This document shows, piece after piece, positions 16,524-55,342 of a stretch of DNA of 64,000 bases. Below the pieces are notes generated by a model. The model was not told the DNA's origin. It saw only the letters and a list, made by a program, of their open reading frames with translations, and did not search any database. Origin of the DNA: Dyadobacter fermentans (GTDB lineage: Bacteria > Bacteroidota > Bacteroidia > Cytophagales > Spirosomataceae); assembly GCF_019924045.1 (NCBI RefSeq), contig NZ_JAHXBN010000022.1:1-64000 (forward strand), in the 5' to 3' direction. The translations under genes and the position numbers were made by a program. Positions within the stretch are counted from its first letter, which is position 1. Every line of letters begins with the position of its first letter.

Positions 16524-16548
16524 GGCTATGATTTTCATGGTCGCTTTC
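16520..16548 (+). terminator. Hairpin after the broken tRNA-Arg copy
   Basis: Arms AAGCGGCTATGA (16520-16531) and TCATGGTCGCTT (16535-16546) with mismatches, at the same position relative to the tRNA 3' end as the terminator of the intact tRNA-Arg. This suggests the fragment once had its own terminator. Confidence 0.5.
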
Positions 16549-16556
16549 TTTATGCT

Positions 16557-16600
16557 ATGACGAGGTCACCAGTTCAGCTGGATAGAGCAATTGCCATCTA
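16557..16600 (+). pseudogene. Degenerate 5' half of a tRNA-Arg-like gene
   Basis: AGTTCAGCTGGATAGAGCAA (from 16571) followed by TTGCCATCT differs at three positions from the D-arm-to-anticodon part of tRNA-Arg (AGCTCAGCTGGATAGAGCAA followed by CTGCCTTCT). The acceptor stem is decayed and the similarity stops at the anticodon. The preceding TTTATG..GAC context also resembles that upstream of the intact gene. Confidence 0.75.
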
Positions 16601-16641
16601 CCTCCTTGTTATGTCGCGGGTATTTCGTTTCAACCCTATTG

Positions 16642-17073
16642 TTACTTTTTTGTCAGGGGGATAGTCATGTCCATGCCAAAATCTTGATCATCATATTTCA
16701 TGAACATATTCAAAGTGAGTGTTGAAGATTTCAGCGAGCCACTCCCTTTGTAGCGGACAATTTGTCCGTTCCCAACTTCGCGAAATGAATCAAAACTGAA
16801 ACTATTGGACGAAGTCATTGGAACTTGGTCAAATGGATAGGTGATAATATAGTCGTCAAATTTTCCATCCAGGCTTTCAAAGTGTTCATTTACGATAATG
16901 TGTAGTGATTTCTCGCTTGTTCTGCTGATATCGTAAGTAGCAAAATAAACTTGATCAGTTGACTTTTGAACGGCGGTCTGCCATGTACCGATAAAGGTAC
17001 CGGTCGGATCGGGTTCCTTGGAAGAACAGGCTATTACCAGTATACCGATGAATAATAGGAATACCCTTATCAT
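16642..17073 (-). CDS. Small putative lipoprotein
   Basis: 143 residues. The N-terminus RVFLLFIGILVIACSS is a lipoprotein signal with the lipidated cysteine at about position 16. The rest is beta-strand-rich (GTFIGTWQTAVQKS, IVRYKGSGSLKSSTLTLNMF) and looks like a small barrel or lipocalin-like fold, as in many Bacteroidota hypothetical lipoproteins. No enzyme motif. Coding DNA is AT-richer than the core block. Confidence 0.65.
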   Translation of the reverse strand: MIRVFLLFIGILVIACSSKEPDPTGTFIGTWQTAVQKSTDQVYFATYDISRTSEKSLHIIVNEHFESLDGKFDDYIITYPFDQVPMTSSNSFSFDSFREVGNGQIVRYKGSGSLKSSTLTLNMFMKYDDQDFGMDMTIPLTKK

Positions 17074-40600: not shown

Positions 40601-40832
40601 CGAGCCAAATGAAACCCTCCTGATCTTGTGTAATTGCCCTTACCGTGTTTTGTGGCAGGCCGTTGTCGCTGGTGTAGTGCCGGACGCTGTATTTTGTCTC
40701 CTTAGCCGCTGGCTGCGAGGCGACCTGCAATGCGAGAATTTGTAACAAAACACAGACACATGTTCCTATCCTTCTCACGACGCGGCTCATAGGGCCTGAT
40801 CTCGTCGCGTTCACTTGTATCTGATCTTTCAC
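37641..40832 (-). CDS. Propeller-type sensor histidine kinase
   Basis: 1063 residues. Signal peptide (VCVLLQILALQVAS), then a periplasmic two-component propeller (VRAITQDQEGFIWLATDMGL, GDIWIAGYGW, GRIWLGMEKDG repeats) and a Y_Y_Y domain (about 690-770, NNLTSGTYTLKIRKN). One transmembrane helix (LVIVTLVLVAIYFYF, about 780) leads to HisKA (ASISHDIRSPLRSIE, His about 850) and HATPase (NLIDNANKYTSGG, VTDTGPGLPEAV, GIGLVIVKEL). Unlike hybrid systems it has no receiver or AraC domain, so it needs a separate regulator; the divergent NarL-type gene at 41104 is the nearest candidate. Confidence 0.92.
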   Translation of the reverse strand: MKDQIQVNATRSGPMSRVVRRIGTCVCVLLQILALQVASQPAAKETKYSVRHYTSDNGLPQNTVRAITQDQEGFIWLATDMGLVRFDGQSFVTFGKDNLGLESSSFLSFITDIEGRHERLYAVGEKLTHIRIADGKAIYDKSPLDHRIHKMFKPSTRPYDLMYMLGLPDRWNKDFVPTYNLFLLPKPNGDFYIWSKGGKIDFYARWKKQKTYQTQLSSPIGLFKIGTNLYYDNEAGSIRLIATSGLARAGADVILEPARGNPEKPDLSKPYKLYADDLSGKAFIYQDLKLYALSERAPGHLVTSILLTNVDFGRNGLTSVFYDSRHQRLYLGTITNGLFIYDLKVFEALGIETDDPGLNVYYAQAILSDSSVITPHFYVVGKSNNGQNFSRVIPHPLGKAINGYTIVKSRSGDIWIAGYGWSYKQLYRYDSTGKQLKQVWNLGSDISFLYEDQTGRIWLGMEKDGVKYIEPGESGMPVRTLTNKIKHVSYMLKDGNDVLWVGTHPGLYKVNLARNTVSAIQRTNGYYIKSLLLPRPGELWFTTDDDGFFLIQNGRPVRFPLDRDHFLSNAHCIVHDRKDFFWIPTNQGLFRILRSDLLDFASHGDSTRLYYHRYSKHSGFRINEFNGGCQPCAIRLRNDYVSLPSMGGLVFFKPEQIPVDTPHSKIFIDRVEANSGNVPVNGSKIQLAGVSDLRVFFSSPYLAERQNQQLYYTVSEEDRPSSTETWFPIEQEQHFISLNNLTSGTYTLKIRKNTGFGPNSVQLATLTIVVPYPWYDTWPFKLVIVTLVLVAIYFYFKSRLKKADQLNRALESRVSEKTRNLQDTLSVLKESEQELLRQTRLQMHLIASISHDIRSPLRSIEFASGKVRGLLQEGELELVGAIGSSVNESSGRVLLLLENILSYVKSQMSGASAAHDTFAVKGLVDEIAVIFDTSFKVQENKFVNNIPGTLLLKSNRQLLKIILHNLIDNANKYTSGGSVIVTASRENEVVRLLVTDTGPGLPEAVLNWFNGDDDTIYPQSPDNAPDMHGIGLVIVKELAGMLHVRIKAISISGAVFSIEFWNT

Positions 40833-40922
40833 TGAGTGTGTACCTGGGGGTTAGGCCTGTTCGGGTTTGAAGGCAAAGCAAACGAAATCGCTCTGTTGCC
40901 GCCAGCAAAAAAATGACAGAAA

Positions 40923-40976
40923 ATCGTAAATGCCTTCGTCGAAACCATAGAAATGATTCTATACCTTATTTACGAT
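40923..40976. promoter_or_regulatory. Inverted repeat in the kinase-regulator divergent region
   Basis: ATCGTAAAT (40923-40931) and ATTTACGAT (40968-40976) are perfect inverted 9-mers 36 bases apart, between the divergent kinase and regulator genes. Possibly an operator for the regulator; tentative. Confidence 0.35.
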
Positions 40977-41103
40977 GTATTGATTGCAACAAAACCCGTT
41001 TCACGCTACTTTTACCGATATCACCGGCTTATCTGTTTACTTCCGCACGTCCCCCTCGGACGTGGACATTGCTCGTATTGACCGGCCCATTGGCTTTACC
41101 ATT

Positions 41104-41733
41104 ATGAAAATTCTTATTATCGATGACCAAACGCTGCTACGCACTGGAATGCAGCTGTTTCTGGAAACCATTTCTGGCGATTACCGGCTTTTTGAGGCAG
41201 CGGACCTGACATCAGCCAGGGGCGTTCTCCGGGAAAATCCCGATATCACAATGGTGATCACCGAGGTGAAAATGGAGGGATTGGTTTCGTCTGAGATCGT
41301 CCATTTGCTTCGTTCTGCCAAGCCAGGCATTTCGGTATTATTCTATTCTGGCTTGTCGGAGCGGATATTTGCCCTACCTGCGCTCAGGGCCGGCGCGGAT
41401 GGGTTCATTATGAAACGCGAGAGACCCGCAGATCTGGCAAGGGCAATCGCCGTGGTGGGCTCCGGCGGCAAATATCTGAGCGTGGATTTACAGGCTTCAT
41501 TAATCTCGATGATTGATTCGGATCACCAAAAAGAAGCCCTGGAATCGCTGGAAACACTCTCTCAACGCGAACGTACGGTGATGAATGAGGTAGTACTCGG
41601 TAAATCGACGAAGGAGATCGCCTTTATGCTCAATGTGAAATGCAACACCATAAGCACTTATAAAAAGCGCATTTACAAGAAAATGAACGTGGCCGATACC
41701 TTCGAGCTGTCGCAAAAAGCTGCCGGTTTTTAA
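41104..41733 (+). CDS. NarL/LuxR-type response regulator with Glu at the phosphorylation site
   Basis: 209 residues from ATG 41104; an upstream in-frame ATG at 40984 gives an atypical 40-residue leader. The receiver begins KILIIDDQTLLRTG, and the C-terminal LuxR HTH is LSQRERTVMNEVVLGKSTKE followed by LNVKCNTISTYKKRI. The phospho-acceptor position reads VITEVKMEG: Glu54 replaces the aspartate and the usual MPG proline is Glu. The lysine (FIMKRE) and Ser (FYSGL) are kept. It may be constitutively active or allosteric. Divergent from the propeller kinase. Confidence 0.88.
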   Translation: MKILIIDDQTLLRTGMQLFLETISGDYRLFEAADLTSARGVLRENPDITMVITEVKMEGLVSSEIVHLLRSAKPGISVLFYSGLSERIFALPALRAGADGFIMKRERPADLARAIAVVGSGGKYLSVDLQASLISMIDSDHQKEALESLETLSQRERTVMNEVVLGKSTKEIAFMLNVKCNTISTYKKRIYKKMNVADTFELSQKAAGF

Positions 41734-41994
41734 AACTAATAGAAATCTTTCTATGGTTTAGTTTTGAACAATGCGAGCTAATACTACGTATTTCTAATTA
41801 GTTTTGAGGCGGATAAAAACAATCTGTCAACGCATTGTCAAGCCGGCACTTGCGTGATAACGTATATTGATAGTCGTTTGTTTTTTTTAACGGACCATCA
41901 GGTACGCACACTATACACACACGCCGAAAAATGGCTCCCAAGTGAGCCGTTTATTTCACCACACCAATTTGAAGCGTTAACCCACTGTTAATCT

Positions 41995-42621
41995 ATGAAA
42001 GTGCTCGTTATTGACGGCCATCCTCTTATGAGATCGGCCATTAAACGGGAAATAAAAGACCATAAACCGCAGGCCAGGGTTACGCTCATGGCGCAGCTAG
42101 ACCAAGCGGTGGAAGCAATTGAAAGCCAATTCTTCGACCTTATCATTATAGAAATAGGCATTCCCGGAGCGGGTATGCATACGATCCGGGAAATACGGAC
42201 GATAGGGCACAGCAGTAAAATCCTCGTGTATTCTTCTATGTGCGAGGCTACCTACGCGCTTCCGTCCGTATCGTCCGGCGCGCATGGGTTCTTGTCCAAA
42301 GAGGTTTCCGGCGACGAATTGCGGATCGCGATCGATATGGTGCTCGATTCGAAGACATATTTCAGTAAAGCCATTCAGGAAAGCCTGCTTTCGCAGGTAA
42401 TTGCCAACGTGAATGTTTCAACCCATAACCCGTTGCAAATGCTCACATCGCGGGAGCGATTGGTGGTGCATTTATTGCTGGAAGGGAAGAAGATACGGAC
42501 TATCGCCGAAATGCTGGCCCTGAAAGAAAGCACTGTCAGTACCTTCAAAGCGAATGTGTTCAAAAAGTTGCAGGTGAGTAGCGTGGTGGCGTTGTCGGAG
42601 AAAATGGAAATGCTGCGGTAA
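41995..42621 (+). CDS. NarL/LuxR-type response regulator, second Glu variant
   Basis: 208 residues. The receiver begins KVLVIDGHPLMRS (the acidic pair is reduced to Asp-Gly). The phospho-acceptor position reads DLIIIEIGIPGAG, with Glu53 in place of Asp. Lys in FLSKEV is retained. The HTH is LTSRERLVVHLLLEGKKIRT followed by LALKESTVSTFKANV. It follows the 41104 regulator by 261 bases and converges on a canonical NarL regulator. Loss of both an acid-pocket residue and the acceptor argues against normal phosphorylation. Confidence 0.88.
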   Translation: MKVLVIDGHPLMRSAIKREIKDHKPQARVTLMAQLDQAVEAIESQFFDLIIIEIGIPGAGMHTIREIRTIGHSSKILVYSSMCEATYALPSVSSGAHGFLSKEVSGDELRIAIDMVLDSKTYFSKAIQESLLSQVIANVNVSTHNPLQMLTSRERLVVHLLLEGKKIRTIAEMLALKESTVSTFKANVFKKLQVSSVVALSEKMEMLR

Positions 42622-42632
42622 CCTGCCGGCGC

Positions 42633-43274
42633 TTAGCAGGCCGTTGCACCTGCGTCGTCGATGATTTTAGACAGCTCGATCGCGCTTGTGACGCCGCATT
42701 TCTGGAAAATCTTCTTTTTGAAGGTGCTGACGGTACTTAATTTCAGCTCCAACTGGGTGGCGATCTCTTTGGTCCACAAACCTCTGATGAGTAGTCTGCT
42801 GATTTCCAGTTCTCTGTCCGTTAACCCGATCCACTTTCGTCGTTTGATTTTGTTGTAGTTCTGGGGCAACTGTGTTACCAGTTGCTGCCGGACCACCTCG
42901 CTGAGGTATTTCTTTTCATTCACCACCGCCGACACCGCTTCCCCGTACATCTCGGGGTCCGACCGCTTCGATAAGTAGCCATCCGCTCCGGCCTGTACGT
43001 ATTTTAATGCGTATTTGTCTTCCGGTAATCCGCTGAATACCAAAATTTTTGCACTTGTCCGGGCCTTTTTTATCATGTCGATCATCTTGACGTCCTGGCC
43101 ACCGGGAAGATGAATGTCCAGGACGACAAGATCGATGGGTTTTTCCTGAACGATCCGTAGCCCCTCGTTAAAATCTTCGGACTCCAAAACCGTTGCGTTT
43201 TGAAATAGTTCGCGTATCACCAGGCGCATACCCATTCTCACAACAGCATGATCTTCAATAAGTAATGCATTCAT
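42633..43274 (-). CDS. NarL/LuxR-type response regulator (canonical)
   Basis: 213 residues. The receiver has an intact acidic pocket (ALLIEDHAVVRMG), the acceptor Asp53 in LVVLDIHLPG, Ser in VFSGLPEDK and Lys in YLSKRS. The LuxR HTH is LTDRELEISRLLIRGLWTKE followed by LELKLSTVSTFKKKI. Unlike its two left neighbours it should be phosphorylatable. No kinase is adjacent on this strand; the propeller kinase at 37641-40832 is the nearest HisKA protein. Confidence 0.92.
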   Translation of the reverse strand: MNALLIEDHAVVRMGMRLVIRELFQNATVLESEDFNEGLRIVQEKPIDLVVLDIHLPGGQDVKMIDMIKKARTSAKILVFSGLPEDKYALKYVQAGADGYLSKRSDPEMYGEAVSAVVNEKKYLSEVVRQQLVTQLPQNYNKIKRRKWIGLTDRELEISRLLIRGLWTKEIATQLELKLSTVSTFKKKIFQKCGVTSAIELSKIIDDAGATAC

Positions 43275-43345
43275 TACAGGCAGTAAGGTTGATTTATAAA
43301 AGTGCGGATAACGCTTTGTTATGGCAAAACTAGACAGGGGAGACT

Positions 43346-44125
43346 ATGCAAACAATGGAGATGTTGATCTTTAGATGTAAACATAGTACTACACTTTTGA
43401 ATGGAATTTCAGGGAGTTTTTGTTACTTCGGGATATTACCGACAACCACGAGACCATTGCAATCTTTTCCCCCCCGACTCTTACTCGTTGAAGACCACGA
43501 TATTGTCCGAATCGCTACCAGCATGATCATTCAGGAGATGATCAGTGACGCTGTCGTAGACACGGCTGCCAATTTCAAGGAAGCGGCGCATGCAGTCACT
43601 TCGCAGCGTTACCAGCTTATTATCCTCGACCTGAATATTCCGGGCACCGACCACTTGCTGACGATCGAAAAGTTGCGCGCATTGCAACCGGATGCTCCCA
43701 TACTCGTTTTCTCGGGACAAAAGGAAGAACTGTACGGTTTGCATTGCATTCGTGCGGGCGCAGCCGGGTTTGTTTCCAAAGAGTCGAAAGCAACCGAATT
43801 ACAGGAGGCCATTCGTGTCGTGCTCGGGGGGCAGAAGTACCTTAGCCCGGTGGTCCGCGCGCAAATGCTAGGCTCCATGCTGCAACAGGGCGTATCCGAC
43901 CCCGCAGCGCTTTTATCGGCCAAGGAACTGGTGGTCATGGAAATGCTGCTGGAAGGCAAGTGGACGAAAGATATTGCCGGTCAGTTGAATTTAAAAAGCA
44001 CTACCGTCAGCACCTTCAAAGCCCGCATTTTTAAAAAGCTGGGTGTGACCAATTTGCTGGATCTTGCCAGGCGGGTTGAAATGTATCATCTATCTAATGG
44101 GGATGTTGTTTCAAATCATAAATGA
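43346..44125 (+). CDS. NarL/LuxR-type response regulator (canonical, start uncertain)
   Basis: 259 residues from ATG 43346, but the first 43 residues are atypical. The receiver begins at PPRLLLVEDHDIVR, and an in-frame TTG at 43457 (222 residues) is a plausible true start. The acceptor aspartate is in LIILDLNIPG, Ser in VFSGQ, Lys in FVSKES. The HTH is LSAKELVVMEMLLEGKWTKD followed by LNLKSTTVSTFKARI. A 17-base sequence at 43421-43437, 19 bases before the TTG, recurs upstream of the lanthipeptide precursor. The gene converges on the LanC-like gene. Confidence 0.85.
   Translation: MQTMEMLIFRCKHSTTLLNGISGSFCYFGILPTTTRPLQSFPPRLLLVEDHDIVRIATSMIIQEMISDAVVDTAANFKEAAHAVTSQRYQLIILDLNIPGTDHLLTIEKLRALQPDAPILVFSGQKEELYGLHCIRAGAAGFVSKESKATELQEAIRVVLGGQKYLSPVVRAQMLGSMLQQGVSDPAALLSAKELVVMEMLLEGKWTKDIAGQLNLKSTTVSTFKARIFKKLGVTNLLDLARRVEMYHLSNGDVVSNHK
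43421..43437 (+). promoter_or_regulatory. 17-base upstream element, copy 1
   Basis: GTTACTTCGGGATATTA, identical to 50848-50864. It lies just before the candidate TTG start of the NarL regulator, with TTTTT directly in front. A shared promoter or regulator site is possible; only two copies were noticed. Confidence 0.4.
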
Positions 44126-44237: not shown

Positions 44238-45371
44238 TCACAAATGCCAGATGAGGTCGTCGAAATTGACTTTTTCGGGATGCAGCGCTTTGACCAACGC
44301 GCTGCCGATGCCGGCGATACCCTCTCCGAATGCCAGGTTTTTTTGCATATTCCAGGAATTTTCGAGCGTTTTATAGCCGGCAAATCCGTCGGGGTGGATA
44401 TCGAATCGCAGGATTTGCCTGTACCAGAAGCCGGCTGCATTTTCGAGTGTCTGGTCGTAGGTGAGGCGTGCAACGCGATCGAACAGTAATGCAAGGCCGG
44501 CGGCACCGTGTTGGATGCCGGCATCCTGGGTAGCGCTCAGGTGCTCTTGCCGGCATTTGGCATATTTTCTCAGCATTTCCAATCCTGCCCGTGTCCAGGT
44601 TGGATTGCCGAATGCCGCGCCGGCGCGCAGTAAGGCATAGCCGGTTTCTGCATTCGTGTCGGTTTCCTGATTTTCTATGTAAATGATCGCTTCGTTTACG
44701 ATCCCTTCGAGGAAATCGGCCGGGCAAAGGCCCATGTCGATGGCCCGGGCGAGGAAAAGAAGTACGGCGGTGGTTTCGGTAGGGGAGAAAACGGCTGGCT
44801 TCGCATGGTGTCCGTTCAATCCCGATTTCCAGTAGCAACCCTCGCCCGTGGGTATTGCGTAGCGCACGATGCCCTGCACGAGCTCATCGATGATCGGTTG
44901 CGCCAACGCCCTGTTATAATAGCTTCTTTGAAGGAAGTAAATGCCATATCCGAGTGCTCCGCTGCCAAAGCCTCCCAGGTTCCCGATGTACAATTCGGAC
45001 CGCATTTTTTTGAGCAGCACGGCGTCGATGTCGCTCAGGAAAACATTGGGATCGAGATCCAGCACGCTCACCTGGCAAAGGTATTGGGCGACTGCCCCCA
45101 GGCTTGCAAAGTCTTGCGGATAGGCTTTCAGTGGATCGCTGTCGACCAGGTCACAGGCATGATCGAACACCTCCCGGGCAACATCCAGGTATTGTTTTTT
45201 GCCGGAATGCACAGCATACAAATAGGTGAAGACAGAAACGCCAAGGTACCCCCGGCTAAAACCGAAACTGCTCAGCTGTTTTTTGTGCGTACTTACAACT
45301 TCGTAGATCTCATCGATTTTGGCGGCAGCAATCATAGCCGAAAGCCCCGATATTCCTGTTGATGTCGTCAT
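44238..45371 (-). CDS. LanC-like lanthionine synthetase lacking zinc cysteines
   Basis: 377 residues with the LanC (alpha/alpha)6 barrel repeats: GFSRGYLGVSVFTYLYA (about 37), LGGFGSGALGYGIYFLQRS (about 132), GIQHGAAGLALLFDRV (about 285) and the C-terminal GEGIAGIGSALVKAL. LanC cyclases bind catalytic zinc through Cys in WCYG and Cys-His in CHG. Here CHG is QHG (Gln287-His288), and the WCYG segment is ETDTNAETG with no cysteine; Cys273 is the only nearby cysteine. The catalytic AHG is also not evident (GLNGHHAKP). It is divergent from LanB with 228 bases between. It may be a binding scaffold or an atypical cyclase. Confidence 0.8.
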   Translation of the reverse strand: MTTSTGISGLSAMIAAAKIDEIYEVVSTHKKQLSSFGFSRGYLGVSVFTYLYAVHSGKKQYLDVAREVFDHACDLVDSDPLKAYPQDFASLGAVAQYLCQVSVLDLDPNVFLSDIDAVLLKKMRSELYIGNLGGFGSGALGYGIYFLQRSYYNRALAQPIIDELVQGIVRYAIPTGEGCYWKSGLNGHHAKPAVFSPTETTAVLLFLARAIDMGLCPADFLEGIVNEAIIYIENQETDTNAETGYALLRAGAAFGNPTWTRAGLEMLRKYAKCRQEHLSATQDAGIQHGAAGLALLFDRVARLTYDQTLENAAGFWYRQILRFDIHPDGFAGYKTLENSWNMQKNLAFGEGIAGIGSALVKALHPEKVNFDDLIWHL

Positions 45372-45599
45372 GGTACCCCGTTGGTTTTTATATACAAATG
45401 TGAATATAACCGGGAGTGTACACAGAACTTTTTAGACCAACTAGGTATCTAATTCGACGAACTGCGAAACGGCCGGTAAGAATGGCCATCCGGTATAGGA
45501 GCTGCTTTGTCGATGAAACTTCGGAGTTCGCATAAATAGTTTGGTTTCAGGTAGTTCTGGTTATTAGCTTCATCCAGAGATTGTAAACCTTCCTATTAT

Positions 45600-48500
45600 A
45601 TGTCAATTGTATCCCAAGGATTCTTTATGCTGAGACGTCCCCGGTTGCCATTGGACGTTCTTTACGCATTCAACGAGCGGGCAGGTAACAGGCCGGAGTT
45701 GTTCGAGCGGGAACTGATCCGTTTTTTCTCGCAATCGCCGATGTTGGAGGCCCTCTACGTGGCCTCGCCGGATCTTTATAATTCATTCACCGGGCTGATC
45801 GAAGGCAGGGTCAAAACCGGTGTCGACAAACTGCTGAAAACGTTATACAAATACCTTGTCAGGATGACCACCCGCAGCACTCCGTACGGCCTCTTTGCCG
45901 GGTGCGCGGCGGGTGAGCTTGGGCAGGAAACCCGCATTGCATTCGACGATGCCGAGCCCTTTCGTAAGCACGTGCGGCTGGATATGCACTACGTGGCCGA
46001 ACTGGCGGACGGGCTTTTGCAAAAAAGTGCCATTCGCGATGAATTGAAATTTTTCCCCAACACAAGCCTTTATCCTATCGGCGACGCCTACCGCTATGTC
46101 GAAAGCGTGTTGAATAACAAAAAGCGGTTGTACGTACTGGCTTCGGTGGACCGCAATGCTTATTTGGACAAGATCATTTCCACTGCCCGCAGCGGAGCTA
46201 CTACCCGCGAACTGGCGGATTGCATTGTATCCGAAGACGTTAGCCGGGAGGAAGCGGAACAGTTCGTCGACGCGATCGTCAGTGCGCAAATTCTGGTCTC
46301 GGAGCTGGCGGCTACGGTTACGGGTGAGGAGTTCTTTTTCACGATTGTCGACAAACTACGCGGGATAACGGGAGCAGCGCAGGATTTGGAACAATTGAAC
46401 AAAATCGCCGGCCTGCTCCAATCCGGGGAACAGTGCGTGGACAAATATCGGGAGGTGGAATCGGTGTTATCGGAGCATTTTGTCACGACAGGCAGTAAGG
46501 ACCTGGTGCAGACAGACCTTTTTCTTCAAACACAATCCTGCACGATCAACGAGAAGGCGGTTGCTTTGCTGACAAAGGAATATCAAAACCTTGCATGCCT
46601 GGGTTACCGGAATCCGCTGCCGGAGTTGGATCAGTTTAAAAAAAGATTTCTGGCAAGGTATGAGCAGCGCGAAATGCCGCTGCTGGAAGTGCTGGACTGT
46701 GAAACCGGGATCGGTTATGGCGACGCCATGGCGGGCAGGGCGGATAACCTTCCGTTGCTGGACGAAATGCAATGGCCGGAGGGCCCTAAGCCTGCCCTGG
46801 CCGACGCTTCTGCCACAGCGGAACTAAGGGACACGCTTTACCAGCAATGTGTTGCCGAAAAAAGTACGCGTGTTTGTCTCACAGATAATATTTTGAATGA
46901 ATTTCGGAAAGCGACCGACGATACCGCGCAAACACCGGACAGCTTTTACCTGTTCGGAAATCTCATTGCGGGTTCGCAGGAGGAAGTCGATAATGGGAAT
47001 TTCAAATTCGCATTTAAAGCAATGGGTGGGCCATCGGGCCTGAAACTGCTCGGGCGGTTTTGCCACGGGAACAGCCAGCTGGCCGAATGGGTAAAAAAAG
47101 CGGTTGCTGAGGAAGAAGCGCTGAGTAAAGAGGGGGTGTATGCAGAAGTAGCCCACCTGCCTGAGGCGCGCGTGGGGAACGTGCTCATGCGCCCGCACCT
47201 GCGCGAATTTGAAATACCCTATCTCTCGGGCTCCTCCATGCCGCGTGAGAACCAGATACTTCCGGAAGACCTGATGGTGTCGGTATCGGTTTCCGGGGAA
47301 GTGATATTGCGGTCGAAAAGATTGAACAAGCGCGTTTTTCCCCGCCTTACCAATGCGCATAACTTTTCCGACGGGTTGCCCGTGTACCGGTTTCTGTGCG
47401 AGCTCACCTACCAGCACGACTACCGCTACCTCGGCTGGGAATGGGGACATCTCGCTTCCAACACATTCCTGCCGCGGGTCGAATACAAGCATTGGATATT
47501 AAGCCGAGCCACATGGAATATCGATAAAAAGGCGGTGGCGGATCTGGTAGGCAGTCAGCATCTGACGGTCGGGGAGTGGCGTGTACTCAGGAATGCCTTT
47601 AACATTCCCCGTTTCGTTCAGCTCCGGCAAGGGGATAGCGAATTGCTGATCGACGGGGACTCCGAGTTTGCGGTGGAAATAGTAGGCGATGCTATCAGGA
47701 AATTTGATAAGGTCACTTTGACAGAATTTCCCGAATATGAACAGAAAGGCTTTTTGGGCAAACCTGGTGAAAACTATCTGAATGAGGTATTGCTGCCCCT
47801 TTTGCACAAAAAAGAACCTTTGCCGGCCAAGCAAATCTGGGAGCAACAATCGATGGCCTTGCCGGCCGTCAGGCGCGATTTTATGACGGGTAGTGAATGG
47901 TTGTATGTGAAAATTTACGCCGGTACCCGCACTGCCGATCGCTTGCTGACGTCGGTTATAAAGCCGTTCGCCGACCGCCTCATGACTGAAAGAGCCATCG
48001 AGAAATGGTTTTTCGTCCGCTATGGCGACCCAGATAACCATGTCCGCCTGCGGTTTTACCATGGCAGCGATAAATCATTCTGGCAGACCGTCCTGGCGGA
48101 ATTGCACGCATTGATGGAGCCGTACCTGAGTAACGGAACCGTTCATAAAATACAGCTTGATACTTACAAGCGCGAGCTGGAACGTTACGGGCATCAGAAA
48201 TTTGAAGAAATTGAATCCATTTTTTTTGCCGATAGCGTTGCAACCGCCGATCTGTTGAATATGCTTTCCGGTGACGCAGGCGAGCATTTCCGGTGGCTGA
48301 CAGGCCTCAGGGGAGTGGATATGCTCCTGAACGACCTGGGTTTTACACTGGCAGATAAAAAGATGTTTACGGGGCAGTTGCGGGAGCGCTTCTTTCATGA
48401 ATTTCGGGGAGATACCCTACTGAATATCCAGCTCAACAATAAGTACCGTCAGCACACCGAAGAAATCAGGAGTTTTCTTGATTCCGAGCATGACGCGGAA

Positions 48501-48758
48501 AACGGTATCGGCGACGTCATCGCATTACTCGAAAAGCGGTCAGCGTGTATCAGAGCTTCGCTGGCGGTTATCCTGCCGGGTGGTGAGGTTTCATTGGGCA
48601 GTTTTGCCAGTAGCCTGGTACATATGTTCCTGAACAGGCTTTTTGTTTCTCAACAGCGTGAACATGAGTTAGTTGTGTATCATTATTTGAAAAAATATTA
48701 CGAGTCTAAGTTGGCAAGAAGGGAAAAAGTGGCACATTTGACATTTGTTTGTGCTTAG
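45600..48758 (+). CDS. lanB: Class I lantibiotic dehydratase (LanB), full length
   Basis: 1052 residues, soluble. The N-terminal glutamylation domain (about 1-700) carries the family signature VRMTTRSTPYGLFAGCAAGE (about 87). The C-terminal glutamate-elimination (SpaB_C/thiopeptide) domain starts near 765 with EWLYVKIYAGTRTADRLL, then EKWFFVRYGDPDNHVRLRFY. In class I lanthipeptides LanB uses glutamyl-tRNA to dehydrate Ser/Thr in a precursor. The gene lies between a LanC-like gene and a LytTR two-component pair, and a precursor candidate lies 2.1 kb downstream. Confidence 0.93.
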   Translation: MSIVSQGFFMLRRPRLPLDVLYAFNERAGNRPELFERELIRFFSQSPMLEALYVASPDLYNSFTGLIEGRVKTGVDKLLKTLYKYLVRMTTRSTPYGLFAGCAAGELGQETRIAFDDAEPFRKHVRLDMHYVAELADGLLQKSAIRDELKFFPNTSLYPIGDAYRYVESVLNNKKRLYVLASVDRNAYLDKIISTARSGATTRELADCIVSEDVSREEAEQFVDAIVSAQILVSELAATVTGEEFFFTIVDKLRGITGAAQDLEQLNKIAGLLQSGEQCVDKYREVESVLSEHFVTTGSKDLVQTDLFLQTQSCTINEKAVALLTKEYQNLACLGYRNPLPELDQFKKRFLARYEQREMPLLEVLDCETGIGYGDAMAGRADNLPLLDEMQWPEGPKPALADASATAELRDTLYQQCVAEKSTRVCLTDNILNEFRKATDDTAQTPDSFYLFGNLIAGSQEEVDNGNFKFAFKAMGGPSGLKLLGRFCHGNSQLAEWVKKAVAEEEALSKEGVYAEVAHLPEARVGNVLMRPHLREFEIPYLSGSSMPRENQILPEDLMVSVSVSGEVILRSKRLNKRVFPRLTNAHNFSDGLPVYRFLCELTYQHDYRYLGWEWGHLASNTFLPRVEYKHWILSRATWNIDKKAVADLVGSQHLTVGEWRVLRNAFNIPRFVQLRQGDSELLIDGDSEFAVEIVGDAIRKFDKVTLTEFPEYEQKGFLGKPGENYLNEVLLPLLHKKEPLPAKQIWEQQSMALPAVRRDFMTGSEWLYVKIYAGTRTADRLLTSVIKPFADRLMTERAIEKWFFVRYGDPDNHVRLRFYHGSDKSFWQTVLAELHALMEPYLSNGTVHKIQLDTYKRELERYGHQKFEEIESIFFADSVATADLLNMLSGDAGEHFRWLTGLRGVDMLLNDLGFTLADKKMFTGQLRERFFHEFRGDTLLNIQLNNKYRQHTEEIRSFLDSEHDAENGIGDVIALLEKRSACIRASLAVILPGGEVSLGSFASSLVHMFLNRLFVSQQREHELVVYHYLKKYYESKLARREKVAHLTFVCA

Positions 48759-48817
48759 CGGAATTTGCTTTGCACGGGCAGTAAGTTCATAAGTTACTAC
48801 CCGGACGCGGTTTAAGT

Positions 48818-49621
48818 ATGACAGGGAAAATTAGTTGCCTCATTGTGGATGATGAGGAACCGGCTCATGAAGTCCTTAAATTTCTGATTTCTAAACTCAG
48901 TTGGTTGACCTACGCAGGAAGTTGCTATAATGCATTGGAGGCGCTGGAAATGATCCCGGAGGTCAAGCCGGATATTATCTTTCTGGATGTAAATATGCCT
49001 GAGCTATCGGGCCTTGATCTGTTGAACATCGTTCACGCTCCGGATGCGCACGTGATCATGACCACCGCCTATCCTGAATATGCGGTAGATGGTTTTACAT
49101 TCGATGTTACCGCTTTTTTGTTGAAACCCATCGGCTTCGACCGGTTTTTGAAGGCTGTCACGAAGGTCAGGAGGCTGATCGGCGACAGCCATTTGGCGCA
49201 TGAAAGGGCGCGGTCGCTTCCTGAGACGGGTACCAACGAAATGGCCGAACGCCAGCAGGCGCCAGCTCCGCAAATCCCCGAGCAGCGGCCTGAAACAGCA
49301 CAGGAAGAATACATGTGGATCCGGGCCGACCGCAAAATGTATTGTGTTTGGTTTAAGGACATTTATTTTGTGGAAGGACTGAAAGACTACGTGAAAGTAT
49401 ATTACACCGATGGGGTGCTGGTCACGTTGGCTTCTATGGCAGCCATGGCAACCCGCCTGCCTTCGCCTACATTCGTCAGGACGCACAGGTCCTACATTGT
49501 CAACCGCAACATGATTAAGATGATTGAAGGAAACATGGTCACCATGCTGAACGGCATGAAAGTGTCGATCGCCGTGTCGCCCACACGCGACGAGGTGCTT
49601 CGTCAGTTGACAGAAAGATAA
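48818..49621 (+). CDS. LytTR response regulator of the lanthipeptide locus
   Basis: 267 residues. The receiver (CLIVDDEEPAHEVL, acceptor Asp in IIFLDVNMPELSGLD, FLLKPI) is complete. A Pro/Gln/Glu-rich linker (about 130-165) precedes a LytTR DNA-binding domain (DIYFVEGLKDYVKVYYTDG, FVRTHRSYIVN). It starts 59 bases after lanB and 9 bases before the cognate kinase gene, so the three are probably one operon. LytTR proteins often control peptide or bacteriocin genes; the CGAAC/GTTTG repeats at 50775-50805 are a candidate site. Confidence 0.93.
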   Translation: MTGKISCLIVDDEEPAHEVLKFLISKLSWLTYAGSCYNALEALEMIPEVKPDIIFLDVNMPELSGLDLLNIVHAPDAHVIMTTAYPEYAVDGFTFDVTAFLLKPIGFDRFLKAVTKVRRLIGDSHLAHERARSLPETGTNEMAERQQAPAPQIPEQRPETAQEEYMWIRADRKMYCVWFKDIYFVEGLKDYVKVYYTDGVLVTLASMAAMATRLPSPTFVRTHRSYIVNRNMIKMIEGNMVTMLNGMKVSIAVSPTRDEVLRQLTER

Positions 49622-49630
49622 GCCTATTGA

Positions 49631-50767
49631 ATGAACAACGATATTACAAAAAGGGGATCACTCATAGAAAGGCTGCTGTTTCCCCGCACGCAAAAGTTAA
49701 GAATCTCCTATCATGTTCTTTTCTGGGTCTTGTTTATTTTGCTGCACTACTCCTATGCATTGCCTACAATCTTGAAGAAGAATGCAGACCCGACCGTTAC
49801 CATCGCAAGTTTTTGCTATTTTTTGAAGATAGTCCCTGAATATTATATCTGTGTCGGATTCTACTATTTGCTTCGCAATTACATCAAGGGATTTTTGCTC
49901 TTTCTGGTTCTTTTCATTTTTGCACTTGTGATCAACCACATGTTTTCCGTGGCGCTGTACAGGGGAGTAGACTATTATTTAGGACTGGAAAATATGACCG
50001 AAAGATACCGGATGTTTGCCAACATGTATCTTGCGCCCTTCAATCTTCGCGACCCGAATACGTGGCTGGTGATCAGTAGTGATATATCGGAGGTCCAGTT
50101 CTTTATATTGCCTGCTGCGTTGAAAACTGCAAAGTTCGCGGCCAATGAACGATTTATTCGGCAAAAAATCGAAGACGACGCCCGTAACATGGAGTTGAAG
50201 GCGTTGAAATCACAGATCAACCCACATTTTGTTTTCAATGTGTTGAATGCCGCTTATGCCAAGGTTTTACCTGTTTCTGAAGATGCCGCTGAATATCTCC
50301 AGAAAGTTTCCGAAGTATTGCGGTTTTCGCTCTACGAGATGAACGATGAGTTTATCAAACTGGAAACGGAACTCGCCTACATGAACCTGTACGTTGAACT
50401 TGAATCGATGAGAAGCAATCGCCGCTGTCAGATCAACGTGGAGCAGCATGGGGAAATGAAGGATACCTACCGCGTTCCTACCGTTTCGCTGATTACCTTA
50501 GTTGAAAATGCATTCAAACATGGCGTGCACTCTACCCGGCATGATTCATTCGTGGATGTCCAGGTCAATGTGTCAGGCGGTTTGCTAACGTTTGAAATAA
50601 CGAATAGCAAGCCATCGCAGCCACTCCGAAGTAAGTCGGGGAGTGGAGGTATTGGTTTGGTTAACCTTGAAAGAAGATTGGGAATATATTACCCGGGGCG
50701 ATACAAATTAGAGAAGTTGGAAACTGAAAGTAAATTCTACGTTTCCGTACAAATTCCGGTCGAATAG
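49631..50767 (+). CDS. LytS/YpdA-type sensor histidine kinase
   Basis: 378 residues. An N-terminal membrane part (about 20-130) has several helices, including YHVLFWVLFILLHYSYALP and GFLLFLVLFIFALVINHMF. The His_kinase domain is MELKALKSQINPHFVFNVLN (phospho-His in NPHF, about 203), followed by the HATPase region VSLITLVENAFKHGV and GSGGIGLVNLERRLGIYYPG. The gene follows the LytTR regulator with a 9-base gap. Its signal may be the peptide product or membrane stress; not shown. Confidence 0.92.
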   Translation: MNNDITKRGSLIERLLFPRTQKLRISYHVLFWVLFILLHYSYALPTILKKNADPTVTIASFCYFLKIVPEYYICVGFYYLLRNYIKGFLLFLVLFIFALVINHMFSVALYRGVDYYLGLENMTERYRMFANMYLAPFNLRDPNTWLVISSDISEVQFFILPAALKTAKFAANERFIRQKIEDDARNMELKALKSQINPHFVFNVLNAAYAKVLPVSEDAAEYLQKVSEVLRFSLYEMNDEFIKLETELAYMNLYVELESMRSNRRCQINVEQHGEMKDTYRVPTVSLITLVENAFKHGVHSTRHDSFVDVQVNVSGGLLTFEITNSKPSQPLRSKSGSGGIGLVNLERRLGIYYPGRYKLEKLETESKFYVSVQIPVE

Positions 50768-50774
50768 CGTGAAA

Positions 50775-50805
50775 CGAACAGAGTAACTGTTTGGTCGAAC
50801 GTTTG
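50775..50805. promoter_or_regulatory. CGAAC/GTTTG repeats upstream of the precursor gene
   Basis: CGAACAG (50775-50781) and CTGTTTG (50787-50793) form a near-perfect inverted repeat, and CGAACGTTTG follows at 50796-50805. The two GTTTG units start 12 bases apart. They lie just after the kinase stop and 85-115 bases before the precursor ATG. Candidate operator; tentative. Confidence 0.4.
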
Positions 50806-50847
50806 TAGATATTGGTATAAAAAGTTGAAAAATAGCATTTTTGTCAG

Positions 50848-50864
50848 GTTACTTCGGGATATTA
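50848..50864 (+). promoter_or_regulatory. 17-base upstream element, copy 2
   Basis: GTTACTTCGGGATATTA, identical to 43421-43437, 26 bases before the precursor ATG and preceded by TTTTTG. Its position suggests a promoter or regulator site shared with the NarL gene. Confidence 0.4.
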
Positions 50865-50890
50865 ATAACCCGTAAACAACAATAAACCTG

Positions 50891-51043
50891 ATGAGGACGC
50901 AAGCATCATTCGAGACAAAACTTCAATTGGTCAGATTCACAGTGGCGCGACTTAATGCTATTTCCAAAGCAAGTGGTAACAAAGATTTTACACGTCCGGA
51001 AACTACCACCAGCACAGCTTCATGTAGGACAATCCTAATTTAA
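50891..51043 (+). CDS. Candidate class I lanthipeptide precursor, 50 aa
   Basis: A 50-residue ORF downstream of lanB and its two-component system. The leader has the KLQLVRFTVARLN pattern (residues 10-22), resembling the KLxLxKxTIxxLN leaders of Bacteroidota class I lanthipeptides. The C-terminal core is rich in Thr/Ser (ETTTSTASC, residues 37-45) and has one cysteine, Cys45, followed by RTILI. LanB could dehydrate T38-T42, S44 and others, and one thioether ring to Cys45 is possible. No GG or GA cleavage motif is obvious. It has its own upstream elements and a strong terminator, which supports a real, separately expressed gene. Confidence 0.72.
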   Translation: MRTQASFETKLQLVRFTVARLNAISKASGNKDFTRPETTTSTASCRTILI

Positions 51044-51114: not shown

Positions 51115-51280
51115 TATTCTTTCCATCCAATCCGGAAGGGAAATGCAACCGGATTATCACAAGTTTAACCGCTACATAATAAGATCGTTACAATGGTAAT
51201 AACTGCAATTATATTCGCCAAAACTGTTGTTTTTTATTTTATCGAATTGGTTAACAACTATTTGTCTCGAACAATTGCCA

Positions 51281-54200
51281 ATGAAAAACCATTACAAATT
51301 GCTCATCGCTTCTCTATTTGCGTTTTGTCTTTTATTACACAAAAAGATTTATCAAACGCTCCCATTTCAAAATTCAGCAGCGCCGGTGACGCAGGTGCAA
51401 ACAGCAGGCAAAGCCGACGCGTTGCTGCCCGATAGTGCCTTGTCAGGCATCAGAGAGGTAATTGCCAACCGCGAGTATCACGTTACTTATGACGAAAAAG
51501 CCGGCGTTTTTCAAAGTCCGAACCGGAGACAAAACCTTCGGGCCACTTATGCACCAGGTGCATTGACACTCAAAAAACGCGTTGATTCGACGCATTCGGA
51601 TTTTACATTAAAGCTCCTCAATCAGGGTGTATTTGGCGATGGGAAATTACTTTATGCAGTCGAGCAGAATGGCGATGCCAGCAGCTACGAAAACAAAGTG
51701 GTGATTGACCATGGTGCGTTCTCGGAAGAATTTATCAATAATGAAAATGGCGTACGTCAGAATTTCATTATTGAGCGCGCTCCAGAGGGTGTGAAGTCGC
51801 TGGCTATAAAGTTGGCCGTTTCGGGTGTCGCGGTTTTGGATAATGGAGCAAATGAACTTCGATTTATAACCAAAGTTATCAAAGGTGGCGTCGCGGAAGA
51901 ACTTGTTTACAATGGCCTGAAATGCTGGGATGCCAACGGGAAAATTCTGGATGCGACATTGGCCTACCAAAACAATCAGATCGAGATTACGACAGACGTT
52001 GAGCATGCGGCATTCCCGGTAACGATCGACCCGATCGTGGGCGGTGGACCGGCTAATGCGAATAAGCGACTGGAAATTCACCAGACGTATGCCTGGCTGG
52101 GCTATTCGGTGTCCAGTGCGGGCGACGTCAATGGCGACGGGTACAGTGATGTGATCATCGGAGCGCCTAAATACGATAACGGGCAAACCGATGAAGGCGC
52201 TGCATTTGTATTTCCGGGAACCGCAGCGGGGCTGAGTCTTGCCGCGACGGTGCTGCAAAGCAATCAGGTGAATGCACAGGCAGGTATGTCGGTATCGAGT
52301 GCCGGAGACGTGAACAAGGATGGATACAGCGATGTGCTGGTGGGCGCGCCTTACTACGATGCCGGCCAAACCGATGAAGGTGCGGTATTCCTGTACCTTG
52401 GCAGCGCAGCCGGCCTTAATATCAATCCGGTTCAAACGCTGAAAACGAACCAGGCTTCCGCCAACCTGGGTATTTCCGTAGCTATGGCCGGCGATGTGAA
52501 TGGCGACGGGTACAGCGATATCCTGGCCGGCGCGCATCAGTACGACAACGGTCAGAATAATGAGGGTGCGGCTTTCCTTTACTACGGCAATGCGTCAGGC
52601 GTGGGTGTGAGCCCGGTGACCCTGGAAGCGAATCAGGCCAATGCGATGATGGGTTATGCCGTCTCGTCGGCAGGCGACGTTAATGCCGACGGTTTCAGCG
52701 ATGTGGTTGTAGGGGCGAGGTTGTACACCAATGGTGAACTTTACGAAGGGGCTGTTTTTGTCTACAAAGGAAGTGCATCCGGCATTATTACCGCTAATCC
52801 TTTCAAAGTGGAAGCCAACCAGATCGACGCGCGACTGGGGCATTCGGTTGCAACAGTGGGTGATGTGAACGGCGATGGCTTTTCCGACGTGCTTTTCGGC
52901 GCATATCAATACAAGCAAAGCCAGACCAACGAAGGAGCCGCGTTTCTCTATTTCGGTTCAGCATTCGGGGAGACGATTGGCGATAAAAGAACACTGATCG
53001 GATATCAGAAGGAGGGCCAGTTCGGATGGGCAGTGGCAGGAGCCGGCGATGTGAATGGCGACGGTTACAGCGATTTCGTCATTGGAGCCAGGTACTATGA
53101 AATCACCAAGCCGAACGAAGGAGCCGCGTTCCTGTTTTATGGCAATCCTACCAAGAATTTCCCGAACAGAAGTGCGGTGTTTTCCGGTGAACAAGGCGAT
53201 GCCTGGCTTGGTACCGCCGTGGCCTCTGCCGGGGATGTGAATGGCGACGGGTATAGCGACCTGGTCATAGGCGCATATACCTACGATAATGGGCAGACCG
53301 ACGAAGGTACCGCACTGATTTATCATGGCGGCGGCCTCACAGGGAACACCTCGGCCAAAAGCGTGGTTGCGGACTCGGTCGCAGCGCGCCGGTTCGGATC
53401 GGTAGTAGCGAACGCGGGAGATATCAATGCAGATGGTTTCGATGATGTTGTTATCAGCGCACCTGGAACGGACCCGCTGACATCGGGCAGGACGTGCATT
53501 CTGTACGGATCCATTGGCGGCATCCGACCGCCATGGTACAATGCGCCGCAAAAATCGACAACGATATTGTTTGGCCGGTCCGTGGCAGGGGCGGGCGACG
53601 TAAACGGGGATGGTTATGCCGATGTTATTATTGGTAATCCAAGTTATGGCAATGTTCCGAATGGTGGGGAGGTAAGGATTTATTTCGGTGCTGCCACGGG
53701 TATTGATACCGTTGGTTTTCAGGTTTTGTTTGAACCGCTGGGAGGTACCAAGTATGGCACCTCCGTGGGCGGCGCAGGCGATCTCAATGGTGATAATTAT
53801 GCGGATATTGTCGTAGGGGCCCCTAAATATAAAATCGTAAATGACACCAGGGGAGCCGCATATGTTTACTATGGCTCTCCAACAGGCGCGGGTACGGTTC
53901 CCAAAGTGCTGCCGGGAAAAAATAGCAATGCAAGCATGGGAGCTTCCGTCGCGGGTTTGGGTGATACCAATGGCGATGGGTATGGTGATTTGATCGTCGG
54001 TGCACCGACTACCAATACCGGAGCCGTAGAGGGTGGTGCCGCATGGATTTACTATGGTTCTTCTACCGGTGTTGAAAACACCAGTACTTTTTTCAAGAAT
54101 GACAATGGGTATGCGCATTTTGGTGCGTCGGTAGCCGCTGCCGGCGATGTAAATGGCGATGGCTTCAACGACGCGGTCATCGGTATTCCTGAACATGGTT

Positions 54201-55342
54201 TATCGAAACAGGGATCGGTTGCCGTGTATCTAGGGGCTTCGGGAGGCTTTACACAAGCTAACCAACGCTTTTATCCGGGTAACTGGGCGAATGCAGCGTT
54301 CGGAATCTCCGTATCCAGCGCCGGCGATGTAAATGGCGACGGTTATAGCGATATTATTGTTGGGGAAAACAAATTATCCCACCAGGTGGCTCAAAGGGGA
54401 GGTTTTACGTTGATCCCGGGGGGACGAACCGGTGACCCGGTTCCTGCGAATTGGGAACTGATGGGCGATGCCACGCTGGACCAGATGGGCGCGTCGGTAA
54501 CGGGCGGTGGCGATGTAAATGGTGATGGATTTTCGGATATCGTCGTCGGTATTCCCGGGCGGGACGGTGTGAACGGCGATGCAGGTGGCGTGCAAATTTT
54601 CGATGGAGGGGCAGATTATCAGGACCCGATCTGGGGCAATATCCTACAAGCCCAACAGAACAGCGTGAGACTTTATAATGCCGACATGGCGACACCCTAC
54701 GTGCCGAAAGTTTCTCAACCTACTTTCGGGGTCGGTCTCGAAAGCCGGTCTTTTTTGGGGCGGAATAAGGGAAAGCTGGTATGGGAAACCAAAAGCAATG
54801 GGCAGCCTTTTTCAAGCCAGCCGAATACACCTATCAGCAATAGCGTGCAGTCGACAGGCTCCCAGCCGGCGTTTACCGATCTTACTGCGGCAGGGATAGA
54901 GCTGAAAGCCCTGATAACCAAGCTAAGCCCTGAAACGAAGGTGCGGGTACGCGTCCGATATGAGCCTGCGCTTGCATTGACCGGCCAGATGTACGGTCCA
55001 TGGCGCTATGTGCAAATGTATATAGAAGGAAAAAGTATATCTCCGGCCCCCGTAGAGGAAACTGCTGCCAGACTGGCCGTACCGGCGGAACGGGAAGTTA
55101 ATGGGGAAGAGAGCGTGTCCGTATTTCCCAATCCCGCGAGCGAAAAACTCTTCATCCGTTCGAATGCAGGAAACGTCATCAAAGGGGTGAAAATGATCTC
55201 ACCAAACGGAACGGTGGTTTACCAGGGAAGCAATGCTCAAACCGAAATAGACTTGAAAGGCCTGACTCCCGGCATGTATATTTTGATATCCAAACACGCC
55301 GACGGCTCGCAGGCGTCCCATAAAGTAATGGTCAAAAAGTGA
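51281..55342 (+). CDS. Giant FG-GAP beta-propeller protein with T9SS signal
   Basis: 1353 residues from ATG 51281, which gives the signal sequence YKLLIASLFAFCLLL; an earlier ATG at 51227 is less likely. Residues about 270-1080 hold 14 FG-GAP repeats, each with a calcium-loop motif such as AGDVNGDGYSDVIIGAP. Fourteen units fit two 7-bladed integrin-type propellers. The C-terminus is a T9SS sorting domain (VFPNPASEKLFIRS to KVMVKK). Likely a cell-surface adhesin or binding protein. It follows the lanthipeptide region but has its own upstream DNA; no functional link is shown. Confidence 0.9.
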   Translation: MKNHYKLLIASLFAFCLLLHKKIYQTLPFQNSAAPVTQVQTAGKADALLPDSALSGIREVIANREYHVTYDEKAGVFQSPNRRQNLRATYAPGALTLKKRVDSTHSDFTLKLLNQGVFGDGKLLYAVEQNGDASSYENKVVIDHGAFSEEFINNENGVRQNFIIERAPEGVKSLAIKLAVSGVAVLDNGANELRFITKVIKGGVAEELVYNGLKCWDANGKILDATLAYQNNQIEITTDVEHAAFPVTIDPIVGGGPANANKRLEIHQTYAWLGYSVSSAGDVNGDGYSDVIIGAPKYDNGQTDEGAAFVFPGTAAGLSLAATVLQSNQVNAQAGMSVSSAGDVNKDGYSDVLVGAPYYDAGQTDEGAVFLYLGSAAGLNINPVQTLKTNQASANLGISVAMAGDVNGDGYSDILAGAHQYDNGQNNEGAAFLYYGNASGVGVSPVTLEANQANAMMGYAVSSAGDVNADGFSDVVVGARLYTNGELYEGAVFVYKGSASGIITANPFKVEANQIDARLGHSVATVGDVNGDGFSDVLFGAYQYKQSQTNEGAAFLYFGSAFGETIGDKRTLIGYQKEGQFGWAVAGAGDVNGDGYSDFVIGARYYEITKPNEGAAFLFYGNPTKNFPNRSAVFSGEQGDAWLGTAVASAGDVNGDGYSDLVIGAYTYDNGQTDEGTALIYHGGGLTGNTSAKSVVADSVAARRFGSVVANAGDINADGFDDVVISAPGTDPLTSGRTCILYGSIGGIRPPWYNAPQKSTTILFGRSVAGAGDVNGDGYADVIIGNPSYGNVPNGGEVRIYFGAATGIDTVGFQVLFEPLGGTKYGTSVGGAGDLNGDNYADIVVGAPKYKIVNDTRGAAYVYYGSPTGAGTVPKVLPGKNSNASMGASVAGLGDTNGDGYGDLIVGAPTTNTGAVEGGAAWIYYGSSTGVENTSTFFKNDNGYAHFGASVAAAGDVNGDGFNDAVIGIPEHGLSKQGSVAVYLGASGGFTQANQRFYPGNWANAAFGISVSSAGDVNGDGYSDIIVGENKLSHQVAQRGGFTLIPGGRTGDPVPANWELMGDATLDQMGASVTGGGDVNGDGFSDIVVGIPGRDGVNGDAGGVQIFDGGADYQDPIWGNILQAQQNSVRLYNADMATPYVPKVSQPTFGVGLESRSFLGRNKGKLVWETKSNGQPFSSQPNTPISNSVQSTGSQPAFTDLTAAGIELKALITKLSPETKVRVRVRYEPALALTGQMYGPWRYVQMYIEGKSISPAPVEETAARLAVPAEREVNGEESVSVFPNPASEKLFIRSNAGNVIKGVKMISPNGTVVYQGSNAQTEIDLKGLTPGMYILISKHADGSQASHKVMVKK

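Follow-up and report, generated by a model that had tools for sequence, protein, structure and literature searches.

How might a class I lanthipeptide locus make a ring when its LanC-like protein has no zinc site, the feature by which class I LanC is regarded as defined? The question is raised by a five-gene locus of Dyadobacter fermentans that lies in the 64,000 nucleotides analysed here (the window: positions 1-64,000 of contig NZ_JAHXBN010000022.1, our contig C92, in assembly GCF_019924045.1, a genome of 8.0 Mb that is 99.99% complete). It encodes a LanB dehydratase, a LanC-like protein that we call pseudo-LanC, a LytTR response regulator, a LytS-type histidine kinase and a 50-amino-acid (aa) precursor peptide. 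A preliminary description made from the sequence had placed each of these genes correctly, and its reading of the whole as a lanthipeptide-type locus is borne out by the LanB domains, the LanC-like protein and a precursor that is conserved beside homologous LanBs. The explanation we prefer, and to which we give about an even chance, is a reduced class I pathway in which LanB would carry out the dehydration, the ring would close by itself, pseudo-LanC would be a scaffold and the LytTR/LytS pair would exert control. The features of the locus are these:

44238-45371, minus strand: zinc-less LanC-like protein (pseudo-LanC), 377 aa; PF05147 match
45428-45461, minus strand: direct-repeat site, 21-bp period, upstream of pseudo-lanC; exact match, conserved in kin
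45506-45539, plus strand: direct-repeat site upstream of lanB; exact match, conserved in kin
45600-48758, plus strand: LanB dehydratase, 1052 aa, both domains; PF04738 and PF14028
48818-49621, plus strand: LytTR response regulator, 267 aa; PF00072 and PF04397
49631-50767, plus strand: LytS-type histidine kinase, 378 aa; PF06580
50791-50824, plus strand: direct-repeat site upstream of the precursor gene; exact match, conserved in kin
50891-51043, plus strand: precursor peptide, 50 aa; homologues in databases and in kin loci
50918-50956, plus strand: conserved leader motif KLQLVRFTVARLN; precursor alignment and sub-threshold NF038153 match
51011-51025, plus strand: predicted ring motif Ser41-Thr42-Ala43-Ser44-Cys45, of the form (Ser/Thr)2-Xxx-Xxx-Cys; precursor alignment

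Loss of the zinc site in the LanC-like protein

LANC_like (PF05147) is the sole family above its cut-off in the 377-aa protein (a weak match, 30.8 bits against a cut-off of 23.2), and there is no lyase-kinase-cyclase fusion of the LanKC type. In NisC numbering the zinc ligands are Cys284, Cys330 and His331, and Asp141 and His212 are the acid-base residues (PMC10604976). Positions 141, 212, 284, 330 and 331 read DHCCH in 49 of 49 canonical LanC rows of our alignment, while the window protein has Gly, Thr, a gap, Gln and His; its zinc triad is incomplete, and Asp141 and His212 are absent as well. The preliminary description had noticed QHG in place of CHG and the missing cysteine of WCYG, and had concluded that the zinc site seemed lost; the alignment agrees on all three points (QHG is at residues 287-289, and the WCYG stretch is absent altogether) and adds the two acid-base residues. 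A complete site built from other residues, which that description had named as contrary evidence, did not appear: at the level of sequence, the alignment contains no alternative conserved set of metal-binding residues.

We searched 222 genomes of the family with the LanC-like protein (E ≤0.001); 44 of them match, canonical LanCs counted in, and 20 loci were fetched around such matches (L034-L053; L-numbers are fetched loci and G-numbers searched genomes). The named homologues are from Dyadobacter species. His212, Cys284 and Cys330 are found in 0 of the 8 rows of the window clade (the window and L034-L040), and the zinc loss is a trait of a clade of LanC paralogues, not confined to the window gene. 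Ratios of nonsynonymous to synonymous substitution (dN/dS) are far below 1 for all five genes of the locus (0.04-0.24), and that of pseudo-lanC, lower than that of lanB, shows purifying selection to be strong; the predicted structure retains the alpha,alpha-toroid LanC fold. Because the zinc site is lost and the protein is strongly conserved all the same, and because the peptide carries a motif that closes unaided in other peptides (below), the protein is probably kept for another job.

ThurKC, a class III enzyme, has no zinc ligands and yet needs the residues at those places for ring formation (PMC10604976), and since it shows a metal-free LanC fold taking part in catalysis, the main rival to our explanation is that pseudo-LanC is an active metal-free cyclase using other residues. 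The retained fold and the purifying selection fit this, as does Hymenobacter coccineus (L086), whose genome has no PF05147 match other than a pseudo-LanC, which stands beside two-Cys double-Gly precursors. The residues that replace Cys330/His331, however, differ even among close kin (QH, QY, HY, HA and LS, so that QHG itself is not kept and kin have QYG, HYG, HAG, LSG or LFG), unlike the Phe-Asp that is important in ThurKC. The degenerate rows, which by definition lack the full triad, offer little else: seven window-clade rows have a set of Cys, His, Asp and Glu residues in common, but of these D116 alone persists across the degenerate rows (32 of 33, the other having a gap), and 37 of 49 canonical rows have it too. 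As the substrate motif also closes without an enzyme elsewhere, we think a metal-free cyclase unlikely, though it deserves to be taken seriously.

A still more distant role, in which the protein would be an unrelated alpha/alpha-barrel glycosidase or epimerase, is the least probable reading of all. It has been proposed for zinc-less LanC-like proteins of Bacteroidales, which are known near carbohydrate genes (PMC10352776), and pseudo-LanCs stand beside SusC/SusD genes in L049-L051. There, in genomes of the genus, the zinc-less LanC-like gene follows thioredoxin-like, SusC-like and SusD-like genes (L049, 2123-9197, L050 and L051; Pfam matches for L049 only), and no LanB was seen within the 18 kb fetched for L050 and L051. 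The window genome has a second PF05147 match (L001, contig C17, 24.8 bits, profile positions 169-258), which we rejected as a LanC: it is a 359-aa protein, glycosidase-like by eye, without LanC motifs, and other genomes show a similar match at the same profile positions.

Could a canonical LanC elsewhere make the ring in trans, or could the locus simply be decaying? Other LanC-family proteins are encoded elsewhere in G066, G053, G094 and G076, but searches of the window genome and of G081, G087 and G093 turned up no canonical LanC. In L039 (5267-9816, a single-contig genome) lanB and the LanC-like gene are each split into two open reading frames (ORFs), with regulator, kinase and peptide apparently intact; such breakage would suit decay, but the dN/dS values of all five genes speak against it. 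This reading is mostly refuted for the window genome, and we consider it very improbable.

The precursor and its predicted ring

LanB scores above the cut-offs of both PF04738 (487.5 bits) and PF14028 (225.6 bits), and PF04738 has no other match in the genome. By sequence it matches NisB and the PDB chains 9g04, which we take to be MadB, and 5ehk (MibB). R12, R88, R92, D366, R816, R818, E859, E861, R862 and H1008 do not vary across the 15 aligned rows, one of which is the window's; all of them but E859 belong to the Arg/Asp and Arg/Glu/His sets that are ascribed to the two active sites in NisB. R88/R92, R816/R818 and E861/R862 align with NisB (the compared alignment ends before H1008), and R12 aligns with 9g04 only. 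LanB would be expected to dehydrate the precursor's Ser and Thr residues in the glutamyl-tRNA-dependent manner of class I enzymes, and so to make the peptide reactive.

The 50-aa ORF, called precursor-like in the preliminary description, is a real gene, because four 50-aa database clusters match it (64, 64, 68 and 96% identity, the last without a stated source and possibly the window's own), and all 11 further loci from the genus have a homologue after the kinase. These eleven (L034-L044) share the order LanC-like gene on the opposite strand, LanB, LytTR, LytS, small peptide. The first four genes keep this order in L045-L048, the LanC-like gene is farther away in L049, and L050-L053 have other surroundings; by eye, a single-Cys peptide with a similar leader follows the kinase in L045, L046, L048 and L049, and the L047 contig stops at the kinase. 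The absence of any conserved precursor beside homologous LanBs, the other contrary outcome named beforehand, is thus not what the genus loci and their distant counterparts show. No precursor was found in L112. The class I lanthipeptide leader model NF038153 falls below threshold on residues 1-23 of the window peptide (13.2 of 22 bits, E 0.077) and matches 12 of 20 aligned precursors at E ≤1, the best at 6.2e-6.

Cys45 is invariant in all 20 aligned precursors, and the residues four and three places before it are both Ser/Thr in 16 of 16 window-type precursors, which are related and hence do not amount to 16 independent cases. This is the motif of rosin A1, in which Dha-Dhb-Xxx-Xxx-Cys (Dha, dehydroalanine; Dhb, dehydrobutyrine) closes regio- and stereoselectively without an enzyme; a change of the Thr abolishes the selectivity, the kinase-lyase complex speeds closure moderately, and similar motifs act alike in class II and Va peptides (PMC12291118). 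The stereochemical preference is described as inherent to the motif, with one exception ascribed to the enzyme (PMC13343206). By analogy, Dha41-Dhb42-Xxx-Xxx-Cys45 would most likely close one lanthionine ring, from Ser41 to Cys45, by itself; no zinc would be needed, because closure would be governed by the peptide's own sequence, and pseudo-LanC would have been retained to bind the peptide or LanB, as a partner or scaffold, and not as a catalyst. The preliminary description had left three outcomes side by side (a linear peptide, cyclisation by another route, a scaffold); the presence in the precursors of a motif that self-closes in other lanthipeptides lets us rank them, and none of the three is proven.

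We gauged the rarity of the pair, and the habits of LanB loci generally, in 78 LanB loci from named genomes (the best 80 of at least 571 confirmed LanB matches; some stretches stop at a contig end, and some of the genomes encode LanC elsewhere). Canonical LanC only is found in 37 loci, both kinds in 6, degenerate LanC only in 12 and none in the fetched stretch in 23. Among candidate precursors picked by regular expression, some of them surely false, a Ser/Thr pair at -4/-3 precedes 2 of 308 core Cys in canonical-only loci (90 candidates in 33 loci), 2 of 80 in loci with both kinds, 9 of 39 in degenerate-only loci and 10 of 45 where no LanC is in the stretch. Among loci with LanB, LytTR and LytS and no LanC, the pair stands at the last Cys in 5 of 9 Cys-bearing candidates: L072, L079 and L108 (Pedobacter), L105 (Spirosoma lacussanchae) and L121 (Hymenobacter daecheongensis). 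The three Pedobacter genomes encode LanC-family proteins elsewhere, and no PF05147 match was found in the genomes of L080, L102, L105 and L121, two of which (L105, L121) carry the ring motif. A lanthipeptide study of Pedobacter lusitanus has reportedly been made.

The same survey bears on the idea that the peptide is dehydrated but stays linear, with Cys45 free and the LanC-like protein doing no more than assist LanB. LanB-only products probably do exist, because 19 of the 78 loci combine a LytTR/LytS pair with a fetched stretch in which there is no LanC, and in seven Chitinophaga loci among them the candidate precursor beside the pair has no core Cys. Against a linear product here, Cys is kept in 20 of 20 aligned precursors and the Ser/Thr pair in the 16 window-type ones, and a free Cys with a Dha at position -4 would be expected to react; we regard such a product as quite unlikely. 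In the seven Chitinophaga loci themselves (L081, L083, L097, L107, L111, L114 and L116) Ser/Thr-rich, Cys-free cores lie beside the regulator pair, and purely dehydrated linear peptides are possible products to judge by these genes. Two further Chitinophaga loci, L089 (6560-7456 and 13129-14322) and L100, from C. oryziterrae and C. niastensis, show a zinc-less LanC after LanB and multi-Cys precursors of the type TSTGCGSGGSTC, with no canonical LanC in the fetched stretch and other LanCs elsewhere in the genomes.

Regulation, and fuller clusters in relatives

The regulator (Response_reg PF00072 with PF04397) and the kinase (PF06580) have the domains of a LytTR/LytS two-component family, and the regulator is present in 11 of 11 further genus loci; two hydrophobic stretches in a simple hydropathy plot indicate that the kinase is probably in the membrane. 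Intergenic alignments gave a repeat, TTnGTCGA-N13-TTsGnmTAAAwAG, whose two half sites are spaced by 21 bp; its form is similar to that of LytTR sites. It precedes all three transcription units (pseudo-lanC, lanB and the precursor gene). The window contains three matches, where 0.06 would be expected with ≤3 mismatches, and their exactness is by construction, the pattern having been written from window and kin sites. They are the only exact matches in the genome, which has no one-mismatch match either, and no further targets are evident because the genome-wide count with ≤3 mismatches (28) is not above that of a reversed control (34). L041-L044, which were not used in building the pattern, have precursor-side sites with 1, 0, 2 and 0 mismatches and others near lanC and lanB with 1-4 mismatches (at ≤4 mismatches 0.23 matches per 18 kb arise by chance). 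We infer that the regulator binds the repeats, and that the pair would thereby switch on all three units through common sites. A sensor-regulator pair of its own and a local set of three promoter sites suggest that the peptide may be a signal.

The preliminary description had thought such regulation unusual. In this it was mistaken: a LytTR/LytS pair lies within about 10 kb of LanB in 33 of the 78 loci and is common in Bacteroidota. The pair is present in 3 of 37 canonical-only loci, 4 of 6 with both kinds, 7 of 12 degenerate-only and 19 of 23 without LanC (30 of 41 loci that are not canonical-only against 3 of 37; Fisher p 2.7e-9, raw counts). An association of the pair with the lack of canonical LanC is not claimed, because it is not significant on the LanB tree (9-10 independent pairs, sign test median p 1 and 0.625).

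The description had also found no transporter or leader protease nearby, and a Peptidase_C39 profile search strengthens the point, with no match in the whole window genome; G081 has none either, and at least one is found somewhere in the other 13 of 15 genomes tested. Fuller clusters occur in L041-L044. There pseudo-LanC adjoins a canonical LanC, 3, 3, 3 and 5 double-Gly precursors, nearly all multi-Cys, lie between the LanC pair and lanB, a radical SAM-type gene lies beyond the one-Cys peptide (by eye in all four, checked with Pfam in L043), and a C39 transporter stands at the locus edge in 4 of 4 genomes (full ORF seen for one). In the stretches fetched for the window, L034-L038 and L040, neither a canonical LanC nor a candidate double-Gly precursor with several Cys is present. 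The trees support neither loss of canonical LanC by the window clade nor regain in L041-L044 over the other; loss is the simpler reading, because the canonical LanCs of L041-L044 and those that partner pseudo-LanC in other tandem loci group together. The one-Cys peptide might be the signal of an older lantibiotic cluster of which the window clade kept only the signal arm (LanB, the self-closing peptide, a pseudo-LanC to present or hold it, its own LytS/LytTR and the local three-promoter regulon), an extension that we offer tentatively and think more probably wrong than right.

Several points weigh against the reduced pathway as we draw it. The product itself is predicted from the genes, and the LanC fold may aid a metal-free closure as in ThurKC. 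The precursors of L045, L046, L048, L049, L118 and L119 have Ser at -4 and Gly at -3; among LanC-less candidates those of L080, L110, L118 and L119 do not have the Ser/Thr pair and that of L102 has no core Cys; and the control peptides of canonical-LanC-only loci belong to other precursor families. On the regulatory side, the LytTR identity of the repeat rests on its likeness to a general consensus, no site with ≤4 mismatches was found in L045, L046, L049, L112 and L118, and L047 and L048 have weak sites only (3-4 mismatches).

Some neighbouring genes may be recorded here. The precursor gene is followed at 51227-55342 by that of a 1371-aa FG-GAP repeat protein with a Por_Secre_tail domain, and of the fetched stretches only those of L036 and L037 showed a close homologue of it near the locus. 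On the other side are a large sensor kinase-like ORF (37641-40832, minus strand, judged by eye) and four small regulator-like ORFs, three recognised by eye (40984-41733, 41995-42621 and 42633-43274, the last of these on the minus strand) and the fourth (43346-44125) with receiver and LuxR-type helix-turn-helix domains; those from 37641 to 44125 do not seem part of the lan locus. In L041-L044 a conserved 70-aa peptide (MRKSFDQFWMELL..., as in L043 at 16255-16654) precedes the radical SAM gene, as does, in the loci where it was seen, another small ORF that contains a GGWLQFGGGK-like segment, and L043 has a further repeat site just upstream of the 70-aa peptide region. A gene of about 400 codons with an EWLDL-like start lies near the kinase and peptide in L046 (10350-11546), L048 (1788-3023) and L049 (10936-12126), without a Pfam match in the two scanned (L046, L049).

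Comparison with known systems

Bacteroidota lanthipeptide loci contain a clade of LanC paralogues that have lost the zinc site, and in the branch to which the window belongs the locus has no canonical enzyme any more. Among the papers listed in literature searches, which cover subscription journals thinly, we found no account of such paralogues in Bacteroidota LanB clusters. They raise the questions of what a metal-free LanC fold does in a class I pathway and of whether self-closing substrate motifs let pathways lose their cyclase. Should the peptide prove to be a signal read by the neighbouring LytS/LytTR pair, Gram-negative bacteria would have a thioether pheromone that comes from a pathway with a pseudo-enzyme as its cyclase.

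The locus resembles the class I pathways of nisin (NisB/NisC) and MadB/MadC in its full-length two-domain LanB with the conserved charged set, its predicted LanC fold and its small precursor, whose leader is class I-like though it scores under the model cut-off, and differs from them in a LanC-like protein without zinc and acid-base residues, a one-Cys core and the lack of any C39 peptidase match genome-wide. With the LanKC cyclase domain of class III (ThurKC) it shares a LanC fold that is kept in a lanthipeptide pathway without zinc ligands, but here there is no kinase or lyase domain, LanB is separate and the replacing residues are not conserved. Rosin A1, a class Va peptide with LanC-free, substrate-controlled closure, has the same five-residue motif, Ser-Thr-Xxx-Xxx-Cys; dehydration would here presumably be due to LanB and not to LanK/LanY, and the closure is predicted from the motif. 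The Bacteroidales zinc-less LanC-like proteins are also from Bacteroidota and also lack the zinc triad, but in their description (PMC10352776) they are found without LanB and are taken as glucanase-like, whereas that of the window adjoins LanB and the precursor and is conserved together with them. Finally, the Bacteroidota class I clusters with NF038153-type double-Gly precursors use the same LanB family, and in Arcicella, Emticicia, Hymenobacter and Dyadobacter sediminis the pseudo-LanC clade occurs there in tandem with canonical LanC; the window-clade loci differ in that their fetched stretches contain neither canonical LanC nor double-Gly precursors with several Cys, and no C39 peptidase is encoded in the window genome.

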